Shown here piece after piece: positions 18,958 to 43,505 of a stretch of DNA of 64,000 nt. The translations under genes and the position numbers were made by a program. The notes beneath the pieces are model-generated. The model was not told the DNA's origin. It saw only the letters and a program-made list of their open reading frames with translations, and ran no database searches. This DNA comes from an uncultured Alphaproteobacteria bacterium (GTDB taxonomy: Bacteria > Pseudomonadota > Alphaproteobacteria > Micropepsales > Micropepsaceae), in contig CADEFU010000003.1 of NCBI GenBank assembly GCA_902826695.1, positions 186,001 through 250,000 of the forward strand. Reading direction: 5' to 3'. The stretch's first letter is position 1, and every line of letters begins with the position of its first letter.

Positions 18958-21900
18958 GGCGCTTATGGTGCGCGCCTGCTTTACCTTTGAGAAGGGATAG
19001 AAACTCAGCAGTTCGGATCAGCTTTTCTTCGAAGTCCGCGAACACGCTTTTCAGTTCGCGCCCGGCGCCTTCGCGCGAGTCGAGTTTGCTTACCCTGTCT
19101 TTGAACATTTTACCCCAACCCGGGGGAGCTGGTTCCCCGAGTCGCGCAAGAAAGCCTTGTGCCCCTTCCACTCCCATGGACGTGAACGAAATATCGGGAA
19201 TCATAGAGAACGACACACCGTGCAGCAGCGAAGGGCGTGGTTCCTCTCGTGGCTCTCGCGTCACCTGCGTGATTTCAAGTCGTATCAGCGTAAGTTCCAA
19301 ACTGGCGCGGTATCTGAGATAGTAGCGTGAAATCCAGCGAACAAACTCTTGCCAATTGTCAACGACGTTTGTCAGTTCACGTTTTTCTATCGCAATCCGG
19401 CGCGCCTTGTGGCAAACGGCCCCGTACTCGATGTGCACCAATGCTGGAAGGCACGGCATGAGCGCCCAAAGATAAAGGAACAGGGATTTTGAATATCGAG
19501 CCAAGTCGACATCCTGGTGGCGGCTTGGATCAATTTGCAACAAGGCCCACTTCGTAGGTGTTTTCGCCAAGGACTGGCAGCCTTTGACTGAACTCGGAAA
19601 CGCCGCGTCGAAGACGGAGTCGTCCTCCGGCCATGCTCCGTTCACATCTGGTCCAAGACCTGCAGCGTCAGCAACAAACAAACGCAAGGGCACCTTCTTC
19701 CAGACGTCCCCCGGCTGAACCTCTGTCGGGTTGCTGATCAGCTCTCGTACTACCTCTTCAAGTTTCCCGGGGAGAGGGTCCGCGGTAAGTCGTTCGAACG
19801 CTTCACGTGAGTAACCGTTTTGTTGAATCCAATGGCGCACTGCGTTGAAACTTGGGATGGTGTAGCGATTGCCCTCCCAGAACGTCGCCGTACGCTCAAA
19901 CGGCCATTTCTCACCAGCAGCCTCCCGATCTTGGTCCACCCGTTTCGGCGGCAGTTGGTTTAGCAAGATTCGCGAAGCGTGCCAGGCACGCCGCATGTCG
20001 TTGATCAACGCTTGGTAGGACTCGAAACTATCAGCCAGAACGTCATCTATTTCGCGCTGGGCGCCAGACACTGGTTCTTTAAGATGTAGCGCCTTTGTCA
20101 CAAACTTGTTCCAGCCCTCAACTGTAGTCTTTGCCAAACTGCTTGCTGCAGTCCGCCCAAGTGCCGTTTCGGCAAAGTGATTGTAGTAGTCATAGTGGCG
20201 ACGCAGCGAGTCGATTTCTGCACACTTTTCTGCAAACTCCCTACGCGTTTCGATATCGGCGAGCAGCTCACCATTCTCTACTTTGGTGGCCGGTGGAGTG
20301 AACCGCCCTATTTCGAGGCTACCAAGAGGTAGAACGACTTCCTTCAGGTACGTTGCAAGGAGTTCCTCGCTCGGCCCCGGTTTGACCTCGACTTTGCCTT
20401 TCTCAATGAGATCTGCTTGAGCCTCATGCGCGGTAGCGGCCCGGCCCTCTTTCTTTGCCGCAGTTGTCGCTTCGCCGATGCCCGCCATTGGCTGCGTCCA
20501 CAAGCGGTCCACGTCAAAGAAAAATAGCTCGGGCCATCGATAGATCAGATTTGTATCCCAATCCTTCGAGAAGCGAAGAGGCTCCCCTTGGGACTCGATC
20601 CGAAGCCCAGGCTCGAAAGCAATATCGGGAAGACAATCCAAATCGTGGAAGTAGATACAGTTCGCCGGTAACACTGAATGCTGAATCTGTTTCGCAACGC
20701 CAAACAGTGTCTGCGGTTGCATTTTCGGAAAGAACGGCGTCATACCGATCATGTTCTGTCCTGAAGGCCGCGGCAGCAATCCGATCGGGACGTTGGCGTC
20801 GGGGTCTTCCCGCAAGGGCAGGGCCAGCCCCAGATCCAACCTGAATCCGATGAAGGAATATCCGTATGTACCACGCTGAAGTGTGCGGTCGCCGATGCGG
20901 AAGTATCGCTCACCTCGCCAACAACTGTCGACGCTCTGTTGCTGCAACCATGCCCCGACATTCGTATCCGCGTCAGAGAAGCGATCGATCAAGAGATTGT
21001 TCTCTGGCGCCTCGAATAATATCACGGCCAACCGCTTCGGTCGGCGATGGGGCAAATGGCGGGACACCAAAACCGAGTTTGGCGTCGAACCTGTAAGACC
21101 GACCAGCGCACGCAATTGCCGGATCGACCGTGGCCGTAACTGCTCACCGTACCGGTGCCGGAACAGCCACCACGCAAGAAAGCTCTCCAACTTGTTCTTA
21201 TCGTCCTCCGATGCCAACTCGCGCAGGCGGAGGCGACGGTTTTGAAACGCTGCCACCTTGATGCGAAGGAAGTCGTCACGAAAGTCGGAAAGTCGCTGCC
21301 GACAATATTGATCAAAAGAGAGGCCGCCGACGAGGGTTTCAAAATCATTGAAGAACTCTTTGTCCCGCGCCCATTCCTTGTCTTTGTCACCCTTTTGGCC
21401 ATTGGAGGGGTCGCCAATCTCACTGAAGTCCGCCAACTCATCGACTGGCTCAAACGAAAGAAAAAATCGCAACGGCCGCGGCAGGATTTTTTCGAGATAC
21501 TCTTCAATTTGATGCCGAACGAGGCGACGCCACGTGGTTGGTGTGCCGCCGGTCGGGTCCGCCGAAACCTCGACAGGATCCTTCAGATCGCTCAACTGAC
21601 GCCAGGTCAAGCTTTGCCGCATCGAGCGCAAGTGACCGGCGACGATGGTCACGATGCGCGGGTGGTCCAGAAAAATGCGGATCGTATGCAGAATATCGGC
21701 GGTGGTTTGCGGCGACACATCGGTGTCATCGACAAAGGTCACCAAGAGCTGTGCTTTGAAGTAGTCCAAGTACTCGTTGACGTACGAGCGCCACATTGCA
21801 ACGCGGTTATAGGACTCGGCGCCCGTGCTTCCGAGCTTGGTCAAATAGTTCTCGAGGTTGTAGCTATACGCTCTGATGGCCTCGTCGCGCTCGCTCTTCG

Positions 21901-22675
21901 CGAGGTACCAACCTTTCGCGACTTGATCGTGCAGTTTCTGTACTAGCGCTTCGCCCTGCGTCACCCGCTCGCTATCCGTGTGCGAAGCGCTCTTGCATCG
22001 CATGATCTCGCCCTTCAATTTCGTGATCATGAGGGCAAAGAGAGCCTCCATGACCGATTGGGTTTGTTCAAGATCGGAAGGCACCAGAAGTGGCAAGACG
22101 CATGCCGTGTGTCGCTTTTCGACCCGGGGTTCATGTCCGCGATGAGGTTCCCTGAAGAGACGTTCGACGAGTCCTTTAGTATCTTCGTACGGCCAACTAT
22201 CGAATCTTGTCTTCTCACTCTTGCTTTCTGGGTTGGCTTCTTTAGCGGCATTCAGGTCTTTACGCTTCTTCTCGACTTCCTCGCTAAAGTAAGTGCGCAG
22301 GCCCTTCAGATAATTGGTAACGAAGTTCCATCGACCATCGGCCCACTTGTCCGCATCCCCGAGGCATTTCAAGAACTCTCTGATTGTGAGCAGCATCGAC
22401 GTCTTGCCGGAGCCGCGCGCGCCGTCGATGAAGAACACATGGCGTGGTCTCCGAAATTGTTGATTGTCTACGTATTCGTGGGTCGTCCGCGCCACCACGC
22501 CGAGCTGGGCTTCGCCGTCGGCAATTTCATATACGCGTAACAAGATGTCTCTTAGAACGCGATCCTGCCGCATTGTAAGTTTGTTGGTAGGCAGTACTGA
22601 GGCGCCAGTCCAGTCGATGTCGCCGAGCGGCCCGTGATCGATTGTTGTCAACGAATCCGTCTTGGTAATACCCAT
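18920..22675 (-). CDS. rdrA: RADAR ATPase RdrA
   Basis: 1251 residues. The ATG at 22675 has a GAGGAA ribosome site 6-7 bases upstream, so the longer frame starting at 22753 is not used. The Walker A motif is GARGSGKT at 85-92; Walker B is FVDDTDVSP near 314-322, followed by a sensor-like strand RIVTIVAGHL. The rest is a long, mainly helical C-terminal region with no recognised domain. In RADAR, RdrA is the ring-forming ATPase that works with the RdrB deaminase to restrict phage. The 3' end overlaps rdrB, so the two are co-translated. The protein looks longer than typical RdrA as I recall the family. Codon use is less GC-biased than in neighbouring genes, consistent with acquisition. Confidence 0.87.
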   Translation of the reverse strand: MGITKTDSLTTIDHGPLGDIDWTGASVLPTNKLTMRQDRVLRDILLRVYEIADGEAQLGVVARTTHEYVDNQQFRRPRHVFFIDGARGSGKTSMLLTIREFLKCLGDADKWADGRWNFVTNYLKGLRTYFSEEVEKKRKDLNAAKEANPESKSEKTRFDSWPYEDTKGLVERLFREPHRGHEPRVEKRHTACVLPLLVPSDLEQTQSVMEALFALMITKLKGEIMRCKSASHTDSERVTQGEALVQKLHDQVAKGWYLAKSERDEAIRAYSYNLENYLTKLGSTGAESYNRVAMWRSYVNEYLDYFKAQLLVTFVDDTDVSPQTTADILHTIRIFLDHPRIVTIVAGHLRSMRQSLTWRQLSDLKDPVEVSADPTGGTPTTWRRLVRHQIEEYLEKILPRPLRFFLSFEPVDELADFSEIGDPSNGQKGDKDKEWARDKEFFNDFETLVGGLSFDQYCRQRLSDFRDDFLRIKVAAFQNRRLRLRELASEDDKNKLESFLAWWLFRHRYGEQLRPRSIRQLRALVGLTGSTPNSVLVSRHLPHRRPKRLAVILFEAPENNLLIDRFSDADTNVGAWLQQQSVDSCWRGERYFRIGDRTLQRGTYGYSFIGFRLDLGLALPLREDPDANVPIGLLPRPSGQNMIGMTPFFPKMQPQTLFGVAKQIQHSVLPANCIYFHDLDCLPDIAFEPGLRIESQGEPLRFSKDWDTNLIYRWPELFFFDVDRLWTQPMAGIGEATTAAKKEGRAATAHEAQADLIEKGKVEVKPGPSEELLATYLKEVVLPLGSLEIGRFTPPATKVENGELLADIETRREFAEKCAEIDSLRRHYDYYNHFAETALGRTAASSLAKTTVEGWNKFVTKALHLKEPVSGAQREIDDVLADSFESYQALINDMRRAWHASRILLNQLPPKRVDQDREAAGEKWPFERTATFWEGNRYTIPSFNAVRHWIQQNGYSREAFERLTADPLPGKLEEVVRELISNPTEVQPGDVWKKVPLRLFVADAAGLGPDVNGAWPEDDSVFDAAFPSSVKGCQSLAKTPTKWALLQIDPSRHQDVDLARYSKSLFLYLWALMPCLPALVHIEYGAVCHKARRIAIEKRELTNVVDNWQEFVRWISRYYLRYRASLELTLIRLEITQVTREPREEPRPSLLHGVSFSMIPDISFTSMGVEGAQGFLARLGEPAPPGWGKMFKDRVSKLDSREGAGRELKSVFADFEEKLIRTAEFLSLLKGKAGAHHKRLASQRSAGKTTK

Positions 22676-23008
22676 CGCATTCCTCAATTGACATTTTACA
22701 GGGAACACCCACGCTAGTTGATACGCTATGTTGGCTATACTCAAGAAATTCATTCGCCCAAAGGCAGAACGAGCATTGATGACTTCTCGCGTTGAGTGTC
22801 AGGGAAGAGTTTTGCGCTGCTACATGCTGCTCTAACTTGGAGAACGATAGCTGGCGCACTTGGGAGGCTGTAAGAAGCTGAGAGAACCTTCCGCGTGGAT
22901 GGGCACGCCCGGCCTTAGTAGCGCCGATGCTTAATCCGGCCGATTGGTCAGGCGGTTGACGCTTGATTGTCGATCAAGAGGGCACAAGCATTCTGCGCTC
23001 TTTGACAT
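22676..23008. other. Intergenic region upstream of rdrA
   Basis: About 330 bases without a convincing gene, unusually AT-rich near rdrA. On the minus strand TTGAGT and TATCAA are spaced 15 bases apart some 50 bases upstream of the rdrA start, a weak promoter candidate. A perfect hairpin CTTGAT-TGTCG-ATCAAG lies at 22962-22978, just past the end of the membrane gene, without a U-run. The region may give rdrA its own promoter rather than strict co-transcription with the membrane gene. Confidence 0.4.
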
Positions 23009-23689
23009 TCAGCGGAACGGGCTCTGCGGCGCGGGAAGGTACTGTTGCGCGACAGCCCAAGTCCAATCGATCGCCAAAAAGACCAAAAACACGAAGAGGA
23101 CGCGGACATTTGCACCAGGGTGCCAAAACAAAAGCAAAGCGACCGCCGCTATTATTGCGGCGGCGACTAGCAAATCGCCCGCCTCAGCAACATTGGGCAG
23201 TTCGACCTCGCGCAAGCCTCCGATGCCGATGTTGGACGCAGTCAGAATGTAAACAACCAAAACAGCAAATGCGGCGACGTGCACAGGATAATGCAGCGCA
23301 GTGCGTCTCCAACCGAACTTGCCCGGTGCGTTCACAAAGAATGAGGTTAGACCAAATCGGCGAAAAGAGAACGCGACGACGATCAAGAGTTGAACGGCCA
23401 CTGGGATCAATTGCTCGAACGCTGGCGACAAAGGGAGTGCGATCCACGCGAGCGCCACGACAATGGTCGACTTGATGATCGCCATGACGGGCAACCAATA
23501 GTCCACAACGGTGGCGGCAAGGCCACTAAACGATAGCGCTCTCAGCACAATCGCAAAGCCACTGAGCACCAGAGGTACAGCACCAATTGCAAGAACCGCT
23601 TCCTCGCGGATAAACGCTACCCAGTCTCTCCCAAGGTCGAGAGGCGTCCGCCTCTGCACGCTTTCGTCCGTTACCTGTTTCGTGCTCAC
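23009..23689 (-). CDS. Multi-pass membrane protein next to RADAR
   Basis: 226 residues from a GTG at 23689 with a G-rich ribosome site (GGGGGGAAC). About six membrane helices are visible, for example AVLAIGAVPLVLSGFAIVL, a central pair around residues 65-110 and the C-terminal VLFVFLVFLAIDWTWAV. The N-terminal 30 residues are polar and likely cytosolic. No domain recognised. RADAR loci are known sometimes to carry a third, membrane-protein gene (SLATT or Csx27-type). This one occupies that position and orientation, so an accessory role is likely, but it lies 333 bases from rdrA and homology to either type is not evident by eye. Confidence 0.7.
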   Translation of the reverse strand: MSTKQVTDESVQRRTPLDLGRDWVAFIREEAVLAIGAVPLVLSGFAIVLRALSFSGLAATVVDYWLPVMAIIKSTIVVALAWIALPLSPAFEQLIPVAVQLLIVVAFSFRRFGLTSFFVNAPGKFGWRRTALHYPVHVAAFAVLVVYILTASNIGIGGLREVELPNVAEAGDLLVAAAIIAAVALLLFWHPGANVRVLFVFLVFLAIDWTWAVAQQYLPAPQSPFR

Positions 23690-26747: not shown

Positions 26748-27752
26748 ATGATCAACCGCGACCCGGAAACGAACTTCGAAGCGCTGTGGCAGACGTTCCG
26801 CGACCGCTACCCCTTCTTCGCGCTCAGAAACGTCGACTGGCAAGAGCAGTACGAGACCTTCCGGCCACGCGTCACGCGCGCGACCGGCGACGCGGAGCTC
26901 TTCGATATCCTCTGCCAAATGCTCGAGGCGCTGAACGACGGGCACGTCGAACTCAAAGCCAGAATAGGCGAGGGCGGGACAACGCGATCCTTCACCGCCG
27001 AAAAGCAGCCCCGCTTCTATCGCGAATTCACGGACCGCGAGATCAAAGACCTCTTCAAAACGACCGAGAAAACGCTGGCCGCCCACGGCTTCGCCCGCCC
27101 GGAAGAGACAGAGGCTTGGCTGCTCCGCTACGGCCGCTCGCCAACCATCGGCTACCTGCGCATTCTCGAGCTCGAGGGTGTCGGCAAACAAAAGCTGACC
27201 GCCGCCTTGGACAAGATCGCCCAGGACTTCGCGGACCTCGAAGGCTTCATCATCGACATTCGCGACTGCCCCGGCGGCGATGATCACGTCGCGATCGCGA
27301 TCATCAACCGCTTCTGCGACGCCAAGCGAACCGCCTTCCACCGCAAGACGAAGATCGGCCCGGGCGAAGACGACTTCACACCTTTGAAGACCTGGCACAT
27401 CGAGCCTGAGGGCGACACGCAGTTCACCGGGCCGATCGTCGTCCTCAGCTGCGATTCCGTGTTCAGCGGCGGCGAGGCGTTCGCGCTGGCGATCAAGGAA
27501 CTGCCGCATGTGACGCTGATCGGCGAGCACACGAACGGCATCTTCTCCTACACGCTCGACAAAAAGCTGCCGAACGGCTGGGCGTATTGCCTGTCCTACC
27601 AAGTGTACCTGTCGGCGGACATGGTCTGCTACGAGGGCAAAGGCGTGCCGGTCGACATCGAGCTGCTGAACACGAAAGCCGATATCGAAGCCGGCGTCGA
27701 TCCGCTGATCATCCGCGCGCTCGATGTGCTGCGGTCGCCCGTTGTCTCGTGA
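26748..27752 (+). CDS. Cytosolic S41-family peptidase
   Basis: 334 residues without signal peptide. LNDGHVEL near residue 65 is the usual S41 N-terminal motif; IIDIRDCPGGDDHVAIAI forms the glycine loop; and VFSGGEAFALAIKELP holds the catalytic Ser-Gly-Gly-Glu region, followed by GEHTNGIFSYTLDKKLPNG. No PDZ domain is visible. This is the tricorn/C-terminal-processing fold in a compact version. It is better preserved than the S41 relative at 7573-9012. Substrate unknown. Its 3' end overlaps the convergent phosphopantetheinyl transferase by 44 bases. Confidence 0.86.
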   Translation: MINRDPETNFEALWQTFRDRYPFFALRNVDWQEQYETFRPRVTRATGDAELFDILCQMLEALNDGHVELKARIGEGGTTRSFTAEKQPRFYREFTDREIKDLFKTTEKTLAAHGFARPEETEAWLLRYGRSPTIGYLRILELEGVGKQKLTAALDKIAQDFADLEGFIIDIRDCPGGDDHVAIAIINRFCDAKRTAFHRKTKIGPGEDDFTPLKTWHIEPEGDTQFTGPIVVLSCDSVFSGGEAFALAIKELPHVTLIGEHTNGIFSYTLDKKLPNGWAYCLSYQVYLSADMVCYEGKGVPVDIELLNTKADIEAGVDPLIIRALDVLRSPVVS

Positions 27753-28440
27753 CGAGAGCCGCAGAGGTGTCGGCCTCCTCGATCACGTAAGCGCAAAAGC
27801 GCTGCGGCCCGCCCGGCGCCTGAACGACACGCAGCGTCGGTGTCAGCTCGAACTCGAACGCGTCAAGACCGAACGGCAATCCCTCGCCGATGGATTTCAA
27901 CGCCGCTTCCTTGAGCGTCCAAAACTGGAAGAAGGCCCGCGCATCCGCCGCTTCGATGGCCTTGGCCTCGGCTTCGCAGAAGTAGCGTCGCGCAAGCTCG
28001 CCTGTCGCCGTCGCCCGCGTTCGATCCTCGATATCGACACCGATGTCATGGGTCGAAGACCACGCCCCCAGAAAGCCGAACCGGCAGGAGGAAAAGCTGA
28101 ACGAGGTCCCCGGCACTTGCGGAAGATACGGGCGGCCTTTCTCACTCTCAGCAAAGCCGATCTGCGCCAGCGGCGCCGAAGACCCAAGCGCCAGCGCGCC
28201 GCAATAGCGGCGAAAGGCACGCTGCTGCTTGAACCGCGCCCGACGTTCCTCGGCCAAGAAGCGCTCCGCCTTCGCCAACTCGCCGGCTGACAGTACCGAC
28301 GCGCAACGCCGCGCCACCTCCGCGTCGTGCGAAACCGGCGCGAACACCACGCAAGCCGCATCACGCGCCGGTGCCGGCGTCCAATCCCGCGCGTTGGCCG
28401 CAAACCAGTCTTGAACCCAGGCGCTATCGTCTCGCGTCAT
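27709..28440 (-). CDS. Sfp-type 4'-phosphopantetheinyl transferase
   Basis: 243 residues from the ATG at 28440. Transfers phosphopantetheine from CoA to the Ser of carrier domains. The Mg/CoA motif is GVDIED (134-139) and the second signature is FWTLKEAALKSIGEG (173 onward). Length and the N-terminal pseudo-repeat fit the Sfp/EntD type rather than AcpS. The start overlaps the end of the NRPS gene by 17 bases, so it is co-translated and very likely activates that enzyme's T domain (Ser620). It is the last gene of the diaminopropionate operon. Confidence 0.93.
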   Translation of the reverse strand: MTRDDSAWVQDWFAANARDWTPAPARDAACVVFAPVSHDAEVARRCASVLSAGELAKAERFLAEERRARFKQQRAFRRYCGALALGSSAPLAQIGFAESEKGRPYLPQVPGTSFSFSSCRFGFLGAWSSTHDIGVDIEDRTRATATGELARRYFCEAEAKAIEAADARAFFQFWTLKEAALKSIGEGLPFGLDAFEFELTPTLRVVQAPGGPQRFCAYVIEEADTSAALVTRQRATAAHRARG

Positions 28441-31400
28441 CGACGGGCTCCGCCGGGCTCCCCTCATAGACGGCCCTGGAAAGGCTCATCTCCTTCAGCA
28501 CCATGGCGAGCGGCAGCAGCGTGGTATCCCGCGCGATCGTCGCCCCGCCCATCACGGTCGCGCCGACCGCAACCACGCACCCGTCATGGATATGGGTTCG
28601 CTTCACCTTCAGCGTCATATCCTCAAACGAGTGAAGCTGCAGGAAGCCGTCCACGACGCAATCGCGCCCAAAGCTGACGGCGTTCCAGTCGGAGCACTGC
28701 ATCGGCTCGGTCAGGATCGTCCGCGCGCCGATCCCGCATCCCATCCACCGCAAGATCGGGTTCGCGAGCACGGTCCCGGCGAAGAAACTGATTGGCCCCC
28801 GGCACCAGACGAAAAAGCAATCCTGTGCGAAGAAATAGGCAAAGTGCCGCCACGACCAAAACGGCGTCGTATGATCGGCCCCCCAGTCGCTTCCGACCAG
28901 CGCCTTCTTCACCGCGACGCTCAACGAGATCAACCCAGCCTCCGTAACCAGGAAAGCGGCGAACACGCCCGCAATCGGATCGAAGCCCCAGCGCGTCAGA
29001 CAAATGAAGAGAACCGCGAAGATAAGCCCTTCCGTCGCGCGCAGGATGCCGATGCTGAAGAGGTCGTTCAGGAAAACACGGGTCAGAAACAGGGCAAAGC
29101 CCGGCCGCCTGTGCGTTTCGTTCTCCGCCTCGAACGACGCGCTCGCAAACCGCACTGGCGGATTTCCCGCCGCCGTAATCGGCGCACCGAGCCGCGACCG
29201 CATCTGACGGCGAAACAGGATGTCGTTGCCCGGCGTCGAAACGCCCAGAAGGAAATTGGACGGAAGATTGCCGGACTCCGCCACACAGTTGTTACCGGCG
29301 AAGAAGTTCCGCGGCATGTCGAGCGGGCGCAGGGTCATATGCTCGGCCCCGACGTCGAGCATGTTCGTCAAGCAACCATTCGACCAGAAGATCTGAGAGT
29401 CCGCGCTCGCGGCTTCGGGCACAAGGTTGAACATGAGGTCGCATTCCGAGCCGCCCACGCGCGGGAAATGCATGCCCGCAAGCGCCCGCAAGTACTGCCC
29501 CGTGACAGTCCAGGTCCACAGCGCCTGAATGCCGTTCATCTTCGACACACGGTACAGCAGAAGCGCACCCTTGAGCCCGCGCGAAGGGATGAGCCCCGGC
29601 GACGCGGCCGTCCAGCGAATGAAAAGACAGCCGAGCAAAGACACCACCACGATGGTGAGCCAGTTGGTGATGAACGCGTAGAGCACCAGGTGCCAGACGA
29701 TCTCGGTGAGCGGCGTCGTCGCAAAGTAATCGGCGGGAATGCCGCTGCCACCGGCGACGTTGCCGCCAAGCGCCGCCTCGCCGGCCGGTATCAGGCCGCG
29801 GGCGAACCAGAAGATCGCGGCCGTGGGTACGACGGTGAGAAGGAACGACACGGCGATCTGCATCAGGATGTTGAGCGTCTCAAGCATCCAGATCGGCTGA
29901 GTATACCGGCACGCGTTCGCGGTCCGCCTCAACACCGTGGTTCGGCCGGTCAGACGGGCCGGCGCGCCCTCCCACATCTCGTGAGAGCCCGTGTCGCTGA
30001 GGATGGGCGTGAACGGCGTGATCCAGGTGCCGCGCCCCACGGTCACACTGCTCGAGACGGCCGCCCGCATACCGATCTTGCATCCGCTCTCAAGCCGAAT
30101 GGGGCCCACATGCAGATGGTGCCCCGACCACACCGCCGTTCGGACGTAGGCGCCGGTCTGGATGGCGACATCATCCTCGATCGTGAGGAGGTCGAGCGGA
30201 CCGGCGAGATAAGCATCGCTTGCGCACTGAAGGTTCCGCCCGACGCGCGCGCCCAGTTGACGCAACACGAACGCCATCAGCGGCGCGCTGCGATACATCG
30301 CGCCAAGAGAGAGAAGCACCATGCTCTCAATCCGCCCAATGCACCAAATCCGCAGATGCATGCGGCTCCACTTGGGATACACGCCCGGCGTCACGTTGTT
30401 CCGGGTGAAGTCGCCGCCCAAAAGAACGCGAGCGATCATGGCCATGAGGAGGAGCGCGAACGGCGTCACAAGGCCGAGCAGGTAAAGTGCGAAGCCGACG
30501 ACCACAAACGCCGACAGGCTTGCGGTCGCAAAAAACGTCCCGACATCGACGTAGCTGAAGACGGCGAAAGCGAGCAGAAGGGCAGGGGCGACCGACAGCG
30601 TCGCAAACAGAACCTGCAACGTGGTGAAGTAACCGACGGAGAGAACCTCCGCCGCCGCCTCATCGCGCCCGGCGCCGTTCACATCCGCTTGCCTGGCCCT
30701 CGCCGGCGCTGGGTCGGCAAGCTGAGCCCGCCGCGGCTGGCTCGCCACCTTGCGCGCCGTGTTGCAGTCGCTGAGCAACGCCCGAACCGACACCGCCCAT
30801 CCGGCGGCCTGCAGTCGTTGCGCCAGACGCGCGATCAGAATGGAATGTCCGCCGGCCTCAGTAAATCCATCGTCCAACCCAAGCGGCGTCTCGAACACCT
30901 CCCTGCAGATGCTCAGCACTTCCTCGCATTCTGGGTTCGACTCTGCGTTCCCATCCGTCGCGACGACGCGAACTTGCGCGTCGCGCACGCGTTCCGCGTC
31001 GGCCCCCAAGAGTTGAACGAGATTCGGCAATCGCTTCCGATCGATCTTCCCCGACACCGGACTCATGACGAACTTCTCGACAAGGAAGATGCTTGTCGGA
31101 ACCGACGGCTCCGGAAGCTGTGTCGCAAGGATCGCCGTCACCCGGGCCGCCCACGCCGCCGGGGCGGGTGCAACGACGGAAACATCGCCTTTGGCGATGG
31201 AAGGCGCCGCGACGAAGGCGACCAGGGCCTCGTTCTGATAGTCGAGCACCGCAGCTTCGATCTCGCCGAACTGCGTCTGAAGGATGTCCTCGACGGCCTG
31301 CGTCTCGACGCGATGCCCGCGCACTTTCAGCTGGGCATCGATCCGGCCCAGGAACTCCACGCGCTGCGCCCGAATGTCGATTCGACACCTGTCCCCGGTG

Positions 31401-32701
31401 CGGTAGAGCCGGCCGAACGTCGGATGCACGATAAACTTCTGCGCCGTTTGCTCCGGCAGGTTGCGATACCCGCGCGCCAGGTGGACGCCGCCGATGCAAA
31501 GCTCCCCGGCCTCGCCGTGCGGTAGCGGAGTCAGTTGATCGACCTCGAGGATTACGTAGGTGACGTTGGCGAACGGCGGCCCGATCGTGACGGGCTCACC
31601 CGGGCGCAAACTCTGGCGGCTCGTATCGGTGCTCGCCTCGGTGGGACCGTACGTGTTGATGATCTGGCGTCGGCCGCGCGTCCACGGTTCCACGAGCGTC
31701 GCAGGAAAGGCTTCACCCGCCGGCACGATGTAGCGGCACAGCGGATAGGGCAGATCGATCCCCGGGCTCGGCGTAAGCGTCGTCAGCAGAACCGGCGGAC
31801 AGAAGAGAACCGTGACCTCTGCCTCACGCAAAATCGGCACAAGATCGGGACCGGAGCGAACCTGTTCCTTGGTCAGCATGACGACCGCGCAGCCCGACAC
31901 CCACGCGCTGTACATCTCCGAGATACTGCCGTCGTAACCGAGCGACGAGACGAGCGACGTCGCGTCCATGCCGGGAACAAGATCGAAGTAGTCCGCATAC
32001 GTCAGCGCAAGATTGACGTAACCAGCGTGCGGACACTCCACGCCCTTGGGCAGGCCTGTGGTTCCGCTCGTATAGAAGATGGTCGCGAGCCGTTGCGTCG
32101 GATCGTCGAGCCACGTCGCAGGTTTCCGGCGCGGCATCTCCTTCGGCAGGGCGAGCACATCGAGTGTCGGCAGATCGCGGAACTTTTCCTGCCCTCGCGT
32201 CAGAACGACCACCGGCTTGGCGTCGTTGAGCATGTGGGTGATGAGCGCGTCCGGCAACGTCGTGTCGAGGAACATCACCGTGCCGCCAGCGCGAAGGATG
32301 CCGAGGTGGCAGGCCACGATCTGCCAATTGTCCTGCGACATGGCCACGGCCACCACTTGGTCCGGCCCCGTGAGATACGGAGACACCGCAGCCGCCATCG
32401 CCTCGGCCCGCGCGTCGAGTTCGGCGAAGGTCAGCGACTCGCCGGTGTGAGGAATCTGCAAAGCCGTGAGATCAGCGAACCGCCCCGCCGAACGGCTGAA
32501 GACATCGAAGAGCCATCGGGCACCAGCCTGATGCGGCACCTTGATCAGATGACGCTCGCCGAAGACATCCGTCAGACTGTAAGGGCACGTGTCGATCTTC
32601 TCGTCCGGCCCGCGCTCCGCCGCCCTGAGATAGCGCCGCCATGCCAACACCGTCAGCAGAAGGAAGACCGCAATCGCCATTGCGACGAGCGCTAGCGCCA
32701 C
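28424..32701 (-). CDS. Pls-type membrane NRPS (A-T plus terminal membrane domain)
   Basis: 1425 residues from a GTG at 32701 (GAGGTGA ribosome site). Residues 1-25 form a membrane helix. An adenylation domain follows: FYTSGTTGLPKG (209-220), NTYGPTE (349-355), YRTGDR (433-438), GRIDAQLKVRGHRVE (452-466) and a C-terminal GKIDRK. The T domain has GGHS with Ser620. From about 690 on, groups of membrane helices alternate with soluble segments, including hexapeptide-repeat-like stretches such as CKIGMRAAVSSSVTVGRG. There is no ordinary condensation or thioesterase domain. This is the architecture of epsilon-poly-lysine synthetase, where the terminal domain joins free and carrier-bound amino acids. 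Asp257 is the carboxylate-type Asp235 of A domains, binding the amino group of an alpha-amino acid. Confidence 0.92.
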   Translation of the reverse strand: MALALVAMAIAVFLLLTVLAWRRYLRAAERGPDEKIDTCPYSLTDVFGERHLIKVPHQAGARWLFDVFSRSAGRFADLTALQIPHTGESLTFAELDARAEAMAAAVSPYLTGPDQVVAVAMSQDNWQIVACHLGILRAGGTVMFLDTTLPDALITHMLNDAKPVVVLTRGQEKFRDLPTLDVLALPKEMPRRKPATWLDDPTQRLATIFYTSGTTGLPKGVECPHAGYVNLALTYADYFDLVPGMDATSLVSSLGYDGSISEMYSAWVSGCAVVMLTKEQVRSGPDLVPILREAEVTVLFCPPVLLTTLTPSPGIDLPYPLCRYIVPAGEAFPATLVEPWTRGRRQIINTYGPTEASTDTSRQSLRPGEPVTIGPPFANVTYVILEVDQLTPLPHGEAGELCIGGVHLARGYRNLPEQTAQKFIVHPTFGRLYRTGDRCRIDIRAQRVEFLGRIDAQLKVRGHRVETQAVEDILQTQFGEIEAAVLDYQNEALVAFVAAPSIAKGDVSVVAPAPAAWAARVTAILATQLPEPSVPTSIFLVEKFVMSPVSGKIDRKRLPNLVQLLGADAERVRDAQVRVVATDGNAESNPECEEVLSICREVFETPLGLDDGFTEAGGHSILIARLAQRLQAAGWAVSVRALLSDCNTARKVASQPRRAQLADPAPARARQADVNGAGRDEAAAEVLSVGYFTTLQVLFATLSVAPALLLAFAVFSYVDVGTFFATASLSAFVVVGFALYLLGLVTPFALLLMAMIARVLLGGDFTRNNVTPGVYPKWSRMHLRIWCIGRIESMVLLSLGAMYRSAPLMAFVLRQLGARVGRNLQCASDAYLAGPLDLLTIEDDVAIQTGAYVRTAVWSGHHLHVGPIRLESGCKIGMRAAVSSSVTVGRGTWITPFTPILSDTGSHEMWEGAPARLTGRTTVLRRTANACRYTQPIWMLETLNILMQIAVSFLLTVVPTAAIFWFARGLIPAGEAALGGNVAGGSGIPADYFATTPLTEIVWHLVLYAFITNWLTIVVVSLLGCLFIRWTAASPGLIPSRGLKGALLLYRVSKMNGIQALWTWTVTGQYLRALAGMHFPRVGGSECDLMFNLVPEAASADSQIFWSNGCLTNMLDVGAEHMTLRPLDMPRNFFAGNNCVAESGNLPSNFLLGVSTPGNDILFRRQMRSRLGAPITAAGNPPVRFASASFEAENETHRRPGFALFLTRVFLNDLFSIGILRATEGLIFAVLFICLTRWGFDPIAGVFAAFLVTEAGLISLSVAVKKALVGSDWGADHTTPFWSWRHFAYFFAQDCFFVWCRGPISFFAGTVLANPILRWMGCGIGARTILTEPMQCSDWNAVSFGRDCVVDGFLQLHSFEDMTLKVKRTHIHDGCVVAVGATVMGGATIARDTTLLPLAMVLKEMSLSRAVYEGSPAEPVDDARR

Positions 32702-32737
32702 AGCATCACCTCACTTGCGGGCGGAGCTTATCGCCAC

Positions 32738-33808
32738 TCAATCGAAGTATCTCTCGAGCGTACCCCGCCGGCGAATATCGGTCGTCACGCAGTGGAACCC
32801 GCCGCCCAGCAACTTCGAATGCCGCAGCTTGATGGCGATCACGTCGAGCCCCTCTTTCTCAAGCAGCTTGATGAGCGCCGTCTGGTCTCGATCGACGACG
32901 ACCAGGTTCGGATTGATGCTGAAGGCATTCATGTCGATCCAGTCGCTGCCGATGCACTTCGAGAGGTAATCGGCGTCGTACCGCCCCGTGTTCTCCATGG
33001 GCGGACTATAGATCACCTTCCACTGCTTGAGGATTGGGGGCAGCGTGTCGTCGGTCAGACGGGCGGGATTGCAGAGGATCAGGCCGGGCCGCAGCGCCAC
33101 GAAGGTCGAGTCGATGTGACTGCCGTAGTAGACGTCTTTAAGGAAATGGACGCGGAACTTCGGGCCCAGCATCGTTTGCAGCCATTGGCCGCCCATTTCG
33201 TTTCCGGTGGCGCTCACCAAATAGACCAAGTCGTTGCCGAAGCGCAAAACGTTGGCCGCATCGAAAGCCGGTTCGTCGTTTCGCGGTGTGGGCTTCTCCA
33301 AATCGACGTCGAACAGCGAGTCGAGCAGCATGGGTCTTGGCGCGCTGTACCACTTCGCGCCCGCGTTCATGTACTCGATCAGCAGCTTGCGATAGCTGAA
33401 CGACTCCTGTTGGCGGCTGCGGATGACGTTGGGCGTTTCGATGATCTGGTCGCCGATCACCAGCAAGATGTCACGGGGACAATAGTTGTAATATCCCTCG
33501 GACTCCCAGTTGATGGTCGAGAACTTGGCCTCATGCGGCCACGTCTCCGGCCGCTTGACGGTGACACCTTGTTTCTCGAGGGCACGGATGAACGTCTGCA
33601 GATCCTCTTCCGTCTCCTCGATGATTCGTTGCGGAAAAGGGCCGCGGGGAATTGCCTCCAACGCACGATCGGGAAACTCGGCAAGCTGCGTGCTTCGGTC
33701 GGGCGTTGGAAAGCGCGCGTTCAAGGGATTGCCGACGATCACTTCTTCGAGCGGATCCCATTCGTTCCAGCTCCAAACAGGTCCGGTAGATTTAACCTTG
33801 GCATCCAT
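32738..33808 (-). CDS. AGAT-type amidinotransferase
   Basis: 356 residues; the ATG at 33808 with GAGGAG upstream is chosen over a much longer frame. Family: arginine:glycine amidinotransferase. The catalytic Cys is in LGGGFHCVTTDIRRRG (Cys340), with His231 in GSHIDSTF and Asp183 in AFDAANVLRFG. Such enzymes move the amidino group from arginine to a primary amine, releasing ornithine. Set between diaminopropionate synthesis genes and the NRPS, the likely acceptor is diaminopropionate or a related amine, giving a guanidino amino acid; this is inference. It lies 36 bases upstream of the NRPS. Confidence 0.9.
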   Translation of the reverse strand: MDAKVKSTGPVWSWNEWDPLEEVIVGNPLNARFPTPDRSTQLAEFPDRALEAIPRGPFPQRIIEETEEDLQTFIRALEKQGVTVKRPETWPHEAKFSTINWESEGYYNYCPRDILLVIGDQIIETPNVIRSRQQESFSYRKLLIEYMNAGAKWYSAPRPMLLDSLFDVDLEKPTPRNDEPAFDAANVLRFGNDLVYLVSATGNEMGGQWLQTMLGPKFRVHFLKDVYYGSHIDSTFVALRPGLILCNPARLTDDTLPPILKQWKVIYSPPMENTGRYDADYLSKCIGSDWIDMNAFSINPNLVVVDRDQTALIKLLEKEGLDVIAIKLRHSKLLGGGFHCVTTDIRRRGTLERYFD

Positions 33809-33908
33809 GTCGTGTCGTCTCCTCGGGCACGTCGGTCGAGCCGATACGCGTCCCCTGCGTGCTTTGGGTGGTCGAATTTCTGATCTGTAAGCCGCCCTTG
33901 CGCGGCCG

Positions 33909-34934
33909 TTAGTCCTGCCATCGCGTGGAATTGCTGAAAAAATCCGGCACGGCGATCGCCGCCTTCGAAGCAATTGCCGCCTCGAGCACGAAGCTGGCGA
34001 CCGCGAGATCGAGAACGCCGAGCCCAAACGGCGAGAAGATGCGCGGCCGATTGAAGTCGAGCGCAAACCGCTTCTCCATTGCGTCGACCAGCGTGCCCGA
34101 GATGAAGTTTCGGTTCCCGGTCTCAATCTCGGCCAAGTGTACGGACGTTCGTGCCTTCAAGCAGTGCTCGACATCGTCCACGATGTTTTGCGAGGCCAGA
34201 ATGACGTTGGGAAGTATGTCTCGAAGCGAAAGGTGCAGCACCGTCGGCGACAGACGTCCGAGCAGCATCTCGTCGGCCAGATAGGGCTCCAGCGCCGTCG
34301 TCGCAAAAATGATCAATGACGATCCGGCGACGGCCTCCTCCATGCTGTGACGAACGTGGGCAGGTGCGCCGTATCGCTCGTGCAGCCATTTGCCGAAGCG
34401 TTCGGCCTCGGCCGCGCTCGCGTCATAGAGATTGATTTGGCTGAACTGCCAGTCGCGCGCCTTAAGCCATTCCACCGTCGTGCGCGCGATGACGCCCGTC
34501 CCGATCACGCAAAGCGAAGCCGTGCGGGGGCCTGGCGAGAGGTGCTCGGCCGCCAGCGCCGCCGACGCCGCGGTGCGCGTCGCGCTGATCAGAGAGGCTT
34601 CGATGCAGGCGAGCGGGTAACCCGTCGTCGGATCGTTGAGAATTTGAACCGCGGAGGCTCGCGCCAAGTTTGCGGCCGTGTTCTCGGGAAAGCTCGAGAT
34701 CCACTTGATACCGCTCTTCTGAATCGACCCGCCAAGATGGGCCGGCAGCGCGATGATGCGATTTCTCGGTTGCTCCGGATAGCGAAGAAAATAGCTGTCG
34801 GGGTTTATGGACTTTCCCGCCGCATGAAGCCGGTAGGCCGTCTCGACCGCATTGAAGATCTGATCGGGGTTCTTGCCGACGACGTCCCTGACCGTGGATC
34901 CGGAAACCACATAGAAGGTGGGTGCGGCTGCCAC
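33909..34934 (-). CDS. sbnB: SbnB-like dehydrogenase for diaminopropionate synthesis
   Basis: 341 residues, GTG start at 34934 with AGGGG upstream. Ornithine-cyclodeaminase/mu-crystallin fold: N-terminal substrate domain with NRIIALPAHLGG and SGIKWISSFPEN, NAD-binding glycine motif VIGTGVIART near 145, and C-terminal SPFGLGVLDLAVA. In staphyloferrin B synthesis SbnB oxidises the SbnA product N-(1-amino-1-carboxy-2-ethyl)-glutamate to alpha-ketoglutarate and L-2,3-diaminopropionate. The pairing with an SbnA-like gene 12 bases upstream makes that role much more likely than ornithine cyclodeamination. Confidence 0.88.
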   Translation of the reverse strand: MAAAPTFYVVSGSTVRDVVGKNPDQIFNAVETAYRLHAAGKSINPDSYFLRYPEQPRNRIIALPAHLGGSIQKSGIKWISSFPENTAANLARASAVQILNDPTTGYPLACIEASLISATRTAASAALAAEHLSPGPRTASLCVIGTGVIARTTVEWLKARDWQFSQINLYDASAAEAERFGKWLHERYGAPAHVRHSMEEAVAGSSLIIFATTALEPYLADEMLLGRLSPTVLHLSLRDILPNVILASQNIVDDVEHCLKARTSVHLAEIETGNRNFISGTLVDAMEKRFALDFNRPRIFSPFGLGVLDLAVASFVLEAAIASKAAIAVPDFFSNSTRWQD

Positions 34935-34946
34935 GTGATCGTTCCC

Positions 34947-35915
34947 CTAAACGGTTTCAAGCGTCTTGGCATGCTGCGCAATGACGCTCTCGACCCACGC
35001 GGGGTCGTAAACGGTATCGAGATACTTGTCGCCCAAGTCCGCCGAGATGGCGACGATGGTTTCGCCGGGTTTGAACTCCGAGGCGAGCTGCTGCACGGCG
35101 GCGAGGACCGTTCCGGTGCTTCCCCCGATGAGCAAATGATGGTCTCGAACGAAGGAGAGGCACGTTTCGACCGTCTTCTCCTCCTTTATCGCCACAACCC
35201 TGTCCGGGTTGGCGAGGTCTGCGAGCTTCGGCCTCACGCTTGTGCCGATGCCGGGGATGTTACGCTTGCCTGGTTTACCGCCGAACGTAACCGAGCCTGC
35301 CGGCTCGACGCCGACGATCTTGATATGCGGGAATACGACGCGCAGCCTCTCAGATATGCCCGCAAGCGTACCGGTGGTCCCTGCACCGACAAAGATCCAG
35401 TCGACCTTCTCGAACTCCCGCGCGATCTCGTTCGCGGTCTGCTCGGCGTGAACGTTTTTGTTCGCGATGTTCTCGTACTGGTTGACCCAGATGGAGTTCG
35501 GCACGGTCTGAAGGATGTTGTCGATGGTCTTGAATCTGGTTTGCAGGAACCCGCCATCGGGGTCGCGCACGTCGACGACGATGACTTTCGCCCCGTACAG
35601 CTCCATGCCCCTGATATTCGCGCGGGTTGCGTTCGCATCCGTCACGCAGATGAACTTGTAGCCCTTGATCGCGCACACGAGGCTCAGCGCTATGCCGAGG
35701 TTTCCGGATGAAGATTCGACGATCGTGGTCTCATTGGGCTTGGCGAGGCCGCGGCGTTCCAGGTCCGCAATCAATCCTATCGCGGTCTTCACCTTGATCG
35801 AGCCGGTGACGTTGAACCCTTCCAGCTTCAGGAACACGTCGTGCCCGCGGGCGAAGCCACGGACGCGATAAAAGAGGTCGCGGAAGATGAGGTCTAAAGG
35901 GGACGCAATGATCAT
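34947..35915 (-). CDS. sbnA: SbnA-like PLP enzyme for diaminopropionate synthesis
   Basis: 322 residues. Cysteine-synthase fold. The PLP Lys lies in VTGSIKVKTA (Lys41), the phosphate loop is GAGTTGTLAG, and ESSSGNLGIA is the Asn loop. SbnA uses O-phosphoserine and glutamate to make N-(1-amino-1-carboxy-2-ethyl)-glutamate. The GSIK-VKTA form, instead of the GSIKDR of cysteine synthases, matches the SbnA branch as I know it. First gene of a five-gene operon running to 27709; the ribosome site is GAAGAG. No sulfur-assimilation genes are nearby. Confidence 0.9.
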   Translation of the reverse strand: MIIASPLDLIFRDLFYRVRGFARGHDVFLKLEGFNVTGSIKVKTAIGLIADLERRGLAKPNETTIVESSSGNLGIALSLVCAIKGYKFICVTDANATRANIRGMELYGAKVIVVDVRDPDGGFLQTRFKTIDNILQTVPNSIWVNQYENIANKNVHAEQTANEIAREFEKVDWIFVGAGTTGTLAGISERLRVVFPHIKIVGVEPAGSVTFGGKPGKRNIPGIGTSVRPKLADLANPDRVVAIKEEKTVETCLSFVRDHHLLIGGSTGTVLAAVQQLASEFKPGETIVAISADLGDKYLDTVYDPAWVESVIAQHAKTLETV

Positions 35916-39084: not shown

Positions 39085-40233
39085 ATGGCCGAACCGGCCC
39101 AAACCGATCTGAAACGAACCCCGCTCTTCGCGCTCAACGCGGAACTCGGCGGAAAGATGGTGCCGTTCGCCGGCTACGAAATGCCGGTGCAGTTCCCGGC
39201 CGGCATTTTGAAAGAACACCTGCACACGCGCGCCGCCGCCGGCCTCTTCGACGTCTCGCATATGGGCCAGGCGTGGCTGCACCTCGAAGGCAAGGGCACC
39301 CACGACGATATCGCGGCGCTGCTCGAAACACTCACGCCCGGCGACATCAAAGCGCTCAAGCCCGGCCAGATCCGCTACACGCTGCTCTTGAACGACGAAG
39401 GCGGCATCCGCGACGACTTCATGGTCAGCCGCCCGCTTAGCGCTGAGAAGGCCGGCACTCTGTTCCTCGTCGTCAACGCCGCAACCAAGGACGCCGACTT
39501 CGCGCACATCGCGGCCAAGCTGAAGGGCAAAGCGAAACTCGAACGCCTCGAAGACCGCGCGCTCATCGCGCTTCAGGGCCCGAAGGCCGCCGCCGTTCTG
39601 GAACGCATCGTCCCGGGCGTTGCCGCCATGACATTCATGACGATCGCGACCTTCACCTGGGAACGCGCGGAGCTCTTCGTCTCCCGCTCCGGCTACACCG
39701 GCGAGGACGGCTACGAAATCTCTGTGCCGGGTGCGATCGCGACCGCCTTCGCCCGCGTGCTGCTGGCGCAAGCGGAAGTCGCACCCATCGGCCTCGGCGC
39801 GCGCGACAGCCTGCGCCTCGAAGCGGGCCTCTGCCTCTACGGCCACGACATCGATGAGCAAACGACGCCTGTCGAAGCAAACCTGACCTGGGCCATCGGC
39901 AAGCGCCGTAAGCTGGAAAAAGGCTTCCCCGGCGCCGACAAGATCATGGACCAGCTGTTCAACGGCGCGAAACGCGTGCGTGTCGGTATTAAACCCGAAG
40001 GCCGCGCTCCGGCCCGCGAAGGCGCCGAGATTGTCGACGCGAACGGCGCTCCCGCCGGTCGCATCACCTCCGGCGGCTTCGGCCCCTCGGTGAACGGTCC
40101 GATCGCCATGGGCTATGTCCGCGCAGATCTTGCGAACGATGGGACCGCCTTAAGCCTCATTGTCCGCGGCCAAAAACTCGCCGCACGCGTCGTACCGATG
40201 CCCTTCGTTCAAAAACGCTTCCACAAACCTTGA
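39085..40233 (+). CDS. gcvT: Glycine cleavage system T protein (aminomethyltransferase)
   Basis: 382 residues. Transfers the methylene group from the aminomethyl-lipoyl H protein to tetrahydrofolate, releasing ammonia. N-terminal [26 protein letters not shown] and DVSHMGQ are diagnostic; [13 protein letters not shown] and [16 protein letters not shown] carry folate and catalytic residues (the Asp in DSLRLE region). First gene of gcvT-H-PA-PB, under a tandem glycine riboswitch; ribosome site GAGAGAG upstream. Confidence 0.98.
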
Positions 40234-40243
40234 GACGAGACCG

Positions 40244-40615
40244 ATGACCACGAAATACACCAAAGACCACGAATGGGTTCGCGTTGAAGGTAACGTCGCG
40301 ACCGTCGGCATCACCGCCTACGCCGCCGAACAGCTGGGCGACGTCGTCTTCGTCGAGCTCCCCGCCATCGGCAAAGCGGTCGAGAAGGGCGGCGACGCCG
40401 CCGTCGTCGAAAGCGTGAAAGCCGCATCCGAAGTCTACGCGCCGATCTCCGGCGAAGTCGTCGAGGTGAACAGCGCGCTTGTCGACGAGCCGGCAAAGGT
40501 CAACGCCGAACCGACGGGTGCCGGCTGGTTCATGAAGCTCAAGGTCAAGAGCGCCGGCGAACTCAACGGCCTCATGAGCGAGGCCGAATACAACGACTAC
40601 GTAAAGGGGCTCTGA
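40244..40615 (+). CDS. gcvH: Glycine cleavage system H protein
   Basis: 123 residues from the ATG at 40244, which gives the standard N-terminus [13 protein letters not shown]; a longer frame is only the 3' end of gcvT out of frame. The lipoyl-accepting Lys is Lys59 in [15 protein letters not shown]. Carries the aminomethyl group between P and T proteins. The stop overlaps the gcvPA start by one base. Confidence 0.98.
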
Positions 40616-41934
40616 TGCGTTACCTGCCGCTCACCACTGCCGACCGCAAAGCGATGCTGAGCGTCGTCGGCGCGAAGTCGATCGACGAGCTCTACCGCGA
40701 CGTACCGCGTGAGGCCTATCTGACGACGCTCGTCGACCTGCCGATGCACGCGGGCGAACTCGAAGTCGAACGCCAGATGGGCAAGCTCGCCGCACGCAAC
40801 GTGTCGGCCGGCAGCGTACCGTTCTTCTGCGGCGCCGGCGCGTACCGTCACCACGTTCCCGCAACGGTCGATCACCTGATCCAGCGCTCCGAGTTCCTGA
40901 CCTCCTACACGCCGTATCAGCCCGAAATCGCGCAAGGCACGCTGCAATACCTGTTCGAGTTCCAAACCCAGGTCGCGATGCTGACCGGAATGGACGTCGC
41001 GAACGCCAGCATGTACGACGGCTCGACCGCGACCGCCGAAGCCGTGCTGATGTCCGCGCGTGTGACGAACCGCAAGCGCATCGTCCTGTCGCCAAACCTG
41101 CATCCGCATTACGCGGAAACGGTTCGCACGACCGCGGAGGCCGCAGGCCTCTCGATCATCGAAGGCAATGAAACCGCGCTCGACGACAAGACCGCCTGCT
41201 TCGTCGTCCAGAACCCGGACTTCACCGGCGCAATCCACGACATCACCCCGCTGTCGGATGCAGCCCACGCGAAGGGCGCGCTGCTCGTCGCCGTGGTGAC
41301 CGAGATCGTCTCGCTTGGCGCGATCACGCCACCCGGCGAAATGGGCGCCGACATCGTCGTGGCCGAAGGCCAGTCGATCGGCAACCCGCTGAACTTCGGC
41401 GGCCCCTATGTCGGCCTCTTCGCCACGCGCCAAAAATTCGTCCGCCAAATGCCGGGCCGCCTCTGCGGTGAAACGGTCGACGCGCAAGGTAACCGCGGCT
41501 TTGTGCTGACGCTCTCGACCCGCGAGCAGCACATCCGCCGCGAAAAGGCGACGTCGAACATCTGCACGAACTCAGGCCTGTGCTGCCTCGCCTTCACGAT
41601 CCACATGGCGCTCTTGGGCGAAGACGGCTTCCGCAAACTCGCGGCGCTGAACCATGACCGCGCCGTCCAAGCCGCCGACAAGCTCGCGAAGGTCAAAGGC
41701 GTCGAACTGATGACGCCGACGTTCTTCAACGAGTTCACGCTGAAGCTCGCCAAGCCGGCCGCGCCCGTCGTCGATCAGCTGGCGAAGAACGGCATCATCG
41801 CCGGCGTCCCCGTTTCGCGCCTGAAGCCGCATGACAAGGCGGCCCAGAACCTTCTCCTCGTCGCCGTCACCGAAACGACCACACCCGCCGACATCGACGC
41901 GCTCGTCGCGGGCCTCTCGAAGGTGCTCTCATGA
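40615..41934 (+). CDS. gcvPA: Glycine dehydrogenase subunit 1
   Basis: 439 residues. N-terminal half of the P protein in organisms with a split glycine decarboxylase. Starts [15 protein letters not shown] with the family blocks [34 protein letters not shown] and [12 protein letters not shown]. It has no PLP Lys; the active site is formed with subunit 2. It begins in the gcvH stop codon and overlaps gcvPB by 4 bases, so expression is coupled. Confidence 0.97.
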
Positions 41935-43505
41935 TGAACAAGCAAGGCCGCCCGACGACGGGCACAGCAACGAATGGCGGCGAGCTCGCCACGATCTCCG
42001 GTCACCGCGGCCTCGACCGCGAAGTGAAGCTGATCTTCGAAACCGGCCGCCCCGGCGCTTGTGGCGTCGATCTGCCGGAGCCTGAACTGAAGCACGACCG
42101 CCTGGGTGGCCTGCGCCGCCGCGGCGCGATCGGTCTGCCGGGTCTTTCCGAACCCGAAGTCGTCCGCCACTTCGTGCGCCTGTCGCGCAAGAACTACGCG
42201 ATCGACTACGGCCTCTATCCGCTGGGCTCGTGCACGATGAAGCACAACCCGCGCCTGAACGAGAAGATGGCGCGGCTACCGGGCTTCGCCGACATACATC
42301 CGCTGCAGCCGGTCTCGACGATCCAAGGCGCGCTCAGCCTCATCGACCACCTCGCGCATTGGCTGAAGCTGCTCACCAACATGCCCGCCGTCGCGATGAG
42401 CCCGAAGGCCGGCGCCCACGGCGAAACTTGCGGCTTGATGACGATCCGCGCCGCGCACCACGCGAAGGGTGAAGCGCACCGCACGGTCGTGCTGGTGCCC
42501 GAGTCCGCGCACGGCACGAACCCGGCGACCGCCGCCCTCGTCGGTTACACGGTCGAAGAGGTTCCGGCGAACGAACGCGGCCGCGTCGATGTTGCTGCCT
42601 TGAAAGCGAAGCTTGGGCCAAACGTCGCCGCGATCATGCTCACGAACCCGAACACCTGCGGGCTGTTCGAAAACGACATGATCGAAATCGCCGACGCCGT
42701 GCACAAGGCGGGCGCCTACTTCTACTGCGACGGCGCGAACTTCAACGCGATCGTCGGACGCGTGCGCCCCGGCGACCTCGGCATCGATGCGATGCACATC
42801 AACCTGCACAAGACGTTCTCGACGCCGCACGGCGGCGGCGGCCCTGGTGCCGGCCCGGTGGTGCTGTCGGCGGCGCTCGCGCCCTTCGCGCCCGTGCCGC
42901 TCATCCTTCACGGAGCGAACGGCTTCGAGTTGATCGAAGACGACGCCGCCGCAAAGTCACACGACGCGAAACCGTTCGGCCGCATGACCGCGTTCCACGG
43001 TCAAATGGGCATGTTCACCCGTGCCATGGCCTACATGCTCAGCCATGGCGCCGACGGCCTCGCGCAGGTTGCCGGTGATGCGGTGCTGAACGCGAACTAC
43101 ATCCTCGCCTCGCTCAAAGATGTGATGTCCGCACCGTTCGCGCACTCGGGTCCGTGCATGCACGAAGCTTTGTTCGACGACAGCTTCCTGAAGGATACCG
43201 GCGTCACCACGCTCGATATCTCAAAGGCGCTGATCGACGAGGGCTACCACCCGATGACGATGTACTTCCCGCTCGTCGTGCACGGCGCCATGCTGATCGA
43301 ACCGACCGAGACGGAATCGAAGCACGCCCTCGACGAGTTCATCCACGTGCTGGGGACGCTCGCCAAGGAAGCAAAGGGCAACGACAAGCGCCGCTTCGAA
43401 GGCGCCCCGCACTTCGCGCCGCGCCGCCGCCTCGATGAAACGGCCGCCGCCCGCAAACCGGTGCTCCGCTGGACACCGCCGGCAAAAGCGCAAGCGGCGG
43501 AGTAG
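41931..43505 (+). CDS. gcvPB: Glycine dehydrogenase subunit 2
   Basis: 524 residues. PLP-binding half of the split P protein, decarboxylating glycine. The PLP Lys is Lys294 in [26 protein letters not shown] and [12 protein letters not shown] are also typical. ATGA overlap with gcvPA. The C-terminal end is followed after 5 bases by an unrelated membrane gene, so the glycine-responsive transcript may run further. Confidence 0.98.

Follow-up and report, generated by a model that had tools for sequence, protein, structure and literature searches.

The cationic homopolymer synthetases Pls, which makes ε-poly-lysine, and PosA, which makes δ-poly-ornithine, share a common build, in which a single A-T module is followed by six transmembrane (TM) helices and three beta-helix domains (PMC10522769). 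In the A domains of these synthetases, the Asp at position 1 and the Glu at position 3 of the specificity code are conserved, of which the Glu serves to bind the side-chain amine; synthetases of the Dap/Dab type additionally have Phe at position 2 (PMC10522769). In Streptomyces albulus PD-1, poly-Dap is made by a pathway that combines an SbnA/SbnB-type supply of L-2,3-diaminopropionate (Dap) with a single-module A-T NRPS, PDAPs, that carries C-terminal TM and C1-C3 domains (PMC4668381). Its A domain has Phe at position 2 and Glu at position 3, and no amidinotransferase has been described in the pathway. The bacterial homopoly(amino acid)s listed in PMC9606270 carry amines, carboxylates or, as in cyanophycin, arginine as side branches only; none of them is a guanidino homopolymer.

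The two-enzyme module for Dap is also found in the Dap gene pairs of staphyloferrin B, viomycin, capreomycin and zwittermicin. Dap and guanidino groups occur together within one molecule in TAN-1057 and edeine, which are assembled differently from what is proposed here and are likened to it by product, not by gene cluster. The presence of Dap in TAN-1057 has been described (PMC9248904). In S. aureus, SbnA and SbnB are both required for staphyloferrin B, and feeding of L-Dap substitutes for them (PMC3179956).

The window, i.e., the whole stretch of 64,000 nucleotides that was analysed, contains a cluster of five packed minus-strand genes at 27709-35915. All five genes of the original prediction are confirmed, and the set, which recurs in dozens of genomes, is more than a chance neighbourhood. 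From SbnA to the phosphopantetheinyl transferase (PPTase), the genes are separated by gaps of 12, 100 and 36 bp, the final two overlapping by 44 bp. The cluster and the gene facing it are as follows.

34947-35915, minus strand: SbnA-like PLP enzyme, predicted first step of Dap synthesis (TIGR03945; PDB 5d87/5d84)
33909-34934, minus strand: SbnB-like dehydrogenase, predicted second step of Dap synthesis (TIGR03944; PDB 4m54)
32738-33808, minus strand (ATG at 33808, end at 32738): amidinotransferase with the AGAT/StrB1 fold (PDB 1bwd; catalytic residues)
28424-32701, minus strand: single-module membrane NRPS of 1425 aa (AMP-binding, PP-binding and Hexapep domains; TIGR02353 below cut-off)
27709-28467, minus strand: 4′-phosphopantetheinyl transferase, predicted to prime the T domain (PF01648)
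26748-27752, plus strand: S41 (tricorn-like) peptidase, convergent accessory gene (PF03572, PF14684)

The PPTase scores 61 bits against PF01648, above the gathering score of 25, and its homologues adjoin the NRPS at other loci, with 65% identity in L047, for example. The host is Gram-negative, as had been stated, judging by its LptD gene, which scores above the cut-off. A second strong Pls-type protein was not found in the host, and a sigma-70-like promoter site was looked for and not found.

The predicted Dap supply agrees with both curated Dap models: SbnA scores 372.3 bits against TIGR03945 (cut-off 349.95) and SbnB 386.1 bits against TIGR03944 (cut-off 326.9). In the PDB, the nearest protein to SbnA is S. 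aureus SbnA (5d87/5d84), followed by CmnB, and SbnB matches the OCD-family protein 4m54 (E 1.5e-33). The equivalents of the SbnA residues K47 (the PLP lysine), R132 and Y152 are retained in the window protein; R132 is replaced by Lys in three cluster relatives. Compared to the Dap pairs mentioned above, the module here would feed an amidinotransferase and a single-module NRPS, and the equivalent of S185 is Gly in the window protein as well as in most relatives. S185 helps to select O-phosphoserine in SbnA (PMC12414870); with Gly at this place, the serine ester used by the window enzyme may differ.

The amidinotransferase is AGAT-like, as originally predicted. Its closest match in the PDB is StrB1 (1bwd, 361 bits), followed by SxtG, AGAT and HsvA. 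The fold and all catalytic residues are shared with StrB1, AGAT, AmtA and HsvA, and the catalytic or arginine-binding positions D114, D184, H232, D234, R251 and C341 (alignment numbering) are invariant in 59 orthologues. Unlike these described enzymes, the window family forms one separate clade (SH-aLRT 100) whose genes lie beside those for a membrane NRPS and Dap synthesis, and phyla are intermingled within this clade. The enzyme is predicted to shift the amidino group of arginine onto the β-amine of Dap. Against this prediction, StrB1, the closest characterised enzyme, has an aminocyclitol as acceptor, and the related AmtA is narrow, accepting small amino acids only and rejecting Dap (PMC4887976).

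The acceptor could alternatively be glycine, a polyamine or a sugar amine, in which case the NRPS would couple the guanidine compound to Dap or to, e.g., serine. This is considered rather unlikely. It is favored by the nearest clade without NRPS (Robbsia L040 and Streptomyces hygroscopicus L105), where the amidinotransferase gene adjoins those of other enzymes, and by some loci in which no Dap genes are visible; what argues against it is that three divergent Dap gene pairs are repeatedly found with the cassette, and that no alternative acceptor-making gene is common to the loci. The first of the three lineages consists of SbnA/SbnB orthologues (64-80% and 62-70% identity, respectively) that lie upstream of the amidinotransferase gene in one locus group. 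The second has about 36% and 43% identity, respectively, occupies the same position in L060, L061, L062, L065 and L068, and scores over both cut-offs (374 and 384 bits). The third, with about 32% and 34% identity, is found in marine Halieaceae, downstream and on the opposite strand; its SbnB passes at 373 bits and its SbnA, at 276 of 350 bits, stays below the cut-off. That these three lineages recur next to one amidinotransferase-NRPS pair speaks most strongly for Dap as the precursor. An SbnB over the cut-off is missing elsewhere in the genome in 25 of 30 genomes, nearly all of them picked for loci without SbnB and most of them draft bins, so Dap supply is not always visible.

Another amino-acid pathway was sought upstream in the clusters that have no SbnA/SbnB, and the tested genes were unrelated (a sensor kinase, GlnE, AsmA and an outer-membrane protein). 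The sister amidinotransferase without NRPS (about 63% identity) is encoded on plasmid p3 of Robbsia andropogonis (L040 6696-16041) and in S. hygroscopicus (L105 9917-12608). In Robbsia its neighbours are a PGM1-like peptide ligase, an aldehyde dehydrogenase and an EctB-type aminotransferase, and this locus perhaps belongs to another guanidino pathway.

To describe the distribution of the cassette, 84,980 genomes were scanned with an alignment of four amidinotransferases as query. This yielded 80 loci, including about 60 close amidinotransferase relatives at 63-87% identity. The NRPS gene starts less than 400 bp downstream on the same strand in 47 of 59 amidinotransferase loci; most of the others end at a contig edge or have an NRPS orthologue elsewhere in the genome (L052, L063, L067 and L101), and a few genomes have the amidinotransferase without the NRPS. 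Amidinotransferase and NRPS distances are correlated across 44 loci (r=0.88, reached in 0 of 2000 permutations), a figure that shared ancestry makes generous. The pair occurs in Pseudomonadota, Acidobacteriota, Thermodesulfobacteriota, Verrucomicrobiota and Planctomycetota, many of these loci being metagenome bins in which misplaced contigs are possible; records not labelled as bins that contain the pair are NaphS2, HTCC2080, HTCC2148 and Zhengella mangrovi. No close relatives turned up when the family, order and phylum of the host were searched: the amidinotransferase is missing from the other genomes of the family save for one homologue of 40% identity, and only remote relatives of the NRPS were found. 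Searches of plasmids returned remote Pls-type enzymes and the Robbsia amidinotransferase.

A Gemmatimonadota single-contig chromosome (MAG) encodes an amidinotransferase with 87% identity to that of the window (L073 9824-11041) and no NRPS orthologue in the genome; either the cluster was lost or the amidinotransferase is used otherwise. The wide spread of the cassette and the accessory genes were missed in the original prediction.

The positions of the A-domain code were located through a motif alignment with the ten classical positions of PheA. The code of the window NRPS is DGSFVATTDK, and DGSF(V/I)ATTDK is found in all 45 complete orthologues. As a control of the alignment, DLEDIGTVVK was read from the Rhizobium enzyme L046 and DSECYGGVTK from L015, L016 and L043, both of which are published codes for this kind of enzyme (PMC10522769). 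At position 1, Asp235, the reader of the α-amine, is retained in the window family, so the α-amine should be free. Position 2 is Gly in all 45 codes, while L044 has the Phe-Glu pair, and position 3 is Ser in all 45 versus Glu in 9/9 Pls-type references in the same alignment. As positions 2 and 3 are Gly and Ser, a plain ammonium group is improbable for the side chain. Compared to Pls and PosA, the NRPS lacks the Glu for the side-chain amine and is linked to Dap and amidinotransferase genes.

Position 9 of the code is Asp331, which also occurs in specificities other than Arg, e.g., Ser; therefore the code alone does not fix the substrate, and the occurrence of Asp331 in other codes speaks for the reading with another acceptor. 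Asp331 is present in part of the Arg-activating domains (PMC12283262). Altogether, an amidinated side chain is the simplest reading of the code.

An A domain that takes Dap like the Streptomyces enzyme, as originally predicted, fits poorly with a code in which both hallmark residues are absent (PMC10522769). An ordinary Dap A domain, with Phe at position 2 and Glu at position 3, was set aside, and free Dap is probably not taken. The same two residues bear on an alternative in which poly-Dap is first assembled (or Dap is joined) by the NRPS, and the chain, or its end, is only later guanidinylated by the amidinotransferase. Poly-Dap synthesis in S. albulus is indeed composed of SbnA, SbnB and a Pls-type NRPS (PMC4668381). 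However, besides the code without either Dap-type residue (PMC10522769), such late amidination is at odds with AmtA, the only related enzyme tested in detail, which takes small amino acids only (PMC4887976), and it is regarded as improbable.

Pls-type synthetases with the code DSECYGGVTK (L015, L016 and L043) are found in the host's phylum and on a Streptomyces plasmid. A Bdellovibrionales enzyme with this code shows modest arginine activation (PMC10522769).

The NRPS consists of an N-terminal TM helix, the A domain, a T domain (Ser620) and a C-terminal membrane domain with three TM pairs and three beta-helix domains, the second of these with low model confidence. Apart from the N-terminal helix, which is kept in the orthologues and missing from the Pls-type references compared, this is the A-T, six-helix and three-beta-helix layout of Pls and PosA. 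All three TM pairs are conserved and flank three soluble parts as in Pls, and the C-terminal domain retains 36 columns common to at least seven of nine Pls-type references. An AlphaFold model (AF2; 30 sequences, pLDDT 74, pTM 0.78) contains the helix pairs and beta-helix strands in soluble parts 1 and 3, the second part being poorly predicted. The ‘Pls-type’ label of the original prediction thus stands for the architecture and is lost for strict membership, as the NRPS scores 145 bits against TIGR02353 (cut-off 423.1) while aligning over 22-695 of 695 (674 positions). The membrane domain has about 23-29% identity to sampled Pls-type proteins. A PDB profile search with this domain matched hexapeptide-repeat enzymes only, and Foldseek gave partial beta-helix matches, none below E 0.001 and none to a solved structure related over the entire domain. 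In its workings the system resembles a cationic homopolymer pathway, but it falls outside the Pls/PosA family on three counts, namely the TIGR02353 cut-off, the Glu at position 3 and the Phe at position 2.

From the gene families, their linkage and conservation and the A-domain code, which are observed, we infer an amidinated substrate, a bond type and a chain. SbnA and SbnB would make Dap, and the amidinotransferase would transfer the amidino group of arginine to its β-amine, giving L-β-guanidinoalanine. After priming of the T domain by the PPTase, the A domain would activate and load β-guanidinoalanine, and the Pls-like membrane domain would make α-amide bonds and release oligo(β-guanidinoalanine) at or across the inner membrane. 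The product may then be modified or degraded by membrane acyltransferases, encoded as accessories at other loci, and by the peptidase encoded at this one. As a whole, the route through Dap, β-amidination, β-guanidinoalanine activation and amide bonds made by the membrane domain is given slightly less than an even chance. Pls joins its monomers via side-chain amines, whereas guanidines are weak nucleophiles at neutral pH; for this reason an α-amide backbone is proposed instead of the Pls-type isopeptide. It is tentatively suggested, and held to be somewhat more doubtful than the route itself, that this is a horizontally spread pathway of at least five phyla in which divergent Pls-like synthetases α-link the amidinated monomer to oligo- or poly(L-β-guanidinoalanine).

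The same monomer may end up in a small product, either as one or two joined units or, after attack of the guanidine on the thioester, as 5-amino-2-iminotetrahydropyrimidin-4-one, the ring type of TAN-1057. The NRPS module is without a thioesterase (Pfam domains), a β-guanidino thioester can, on chemical grounds, form a six-membered ring, and a membrane domain so far from Pls (about 23-29% identity) need not polymerise. Nevertheless, the whole Pls-like membrane domain is conserved, which exceeds the needs of release by cyclisation, and a small product is considered unlikely, if still a serious candidate. The cyclised monomer and the polymer unit share a mass of 128.07, and a mass ladder distinguishes them. 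The 128 Da repeat given in the original prediction is the right mass to seek for oligo(β-guanidinoalanine), and the 86 Da repeat is less likely.

If true, the chain would be a type of guanidino homopolymer that nature is not yet known to make, and a natural equivalent of arginine-rich cell-penetrating peptides. The conserved A-domain code would offer a clear test case for the recognition of a short guanidino amino acid by an A domain, and the divergent membrane domain a natural variant for studying bond formation by this NRPS domain. As the cassette is present in the marine gammaproteobacterial isolates HTCC2080 and HTCC2148, the product might occur in culturable bacteria. No earlier description of this gene set was found in the open-access literature, in line with the novelty originally claimed. 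SbnA/SbnB were not found named together with an amidinotransferase in this literature, earlier cataloguing being possible, and the combination of Dap with an amidinotransferase is covered there only by work on AmtA, a code survey and two clinical papers.

Accessory genes accompany the cassette. The S41 peptidase gene, outside the range originally noted, has homologues of 60-74% identity in 10 other cluster loci, and a role in product processing or degradation is predicted. In L047, L066 and L072 the NRPS ends in a fused TraX-like membrane protein, for which L052, L057, L059, L062, L064 and L071 have a separate gene; in the host, the search for such a gene gave a 23% partial match only. According to its family description, TraX acetylates F-pilin; by analogy, the product may plausibly be acylated at the membrane. 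A DUF418 membrane protein is encoded in 28 loci. A small protein of about 126-132 aa with a signal-peptide-like start and no Pfam match (family F2) occurs in 33 loci (L055, L060, L091 and 30 others), chiefly where the cluster has its gammaproteobacterial form.

Elsewhere in the window, a minus-strand stretch at 16450-23689 has a low GC content (0.55-0.59 versus about 0.65). It encodes an RdrB-like protein of 835 aa (PADLOC, 65.8 bits; A_deaminase), an RdrA-like protein of 1277 aa (31.5 bits; KAP_NTPase) and a hydrophobic protein of 226 aa without a match, and is likely a divergent RADAR anti-phage system, judging by these similarities. On the plus strand, 39085-43505 holds a glycine cleavage operon with gcvT, gcvH and both gcvP halves.
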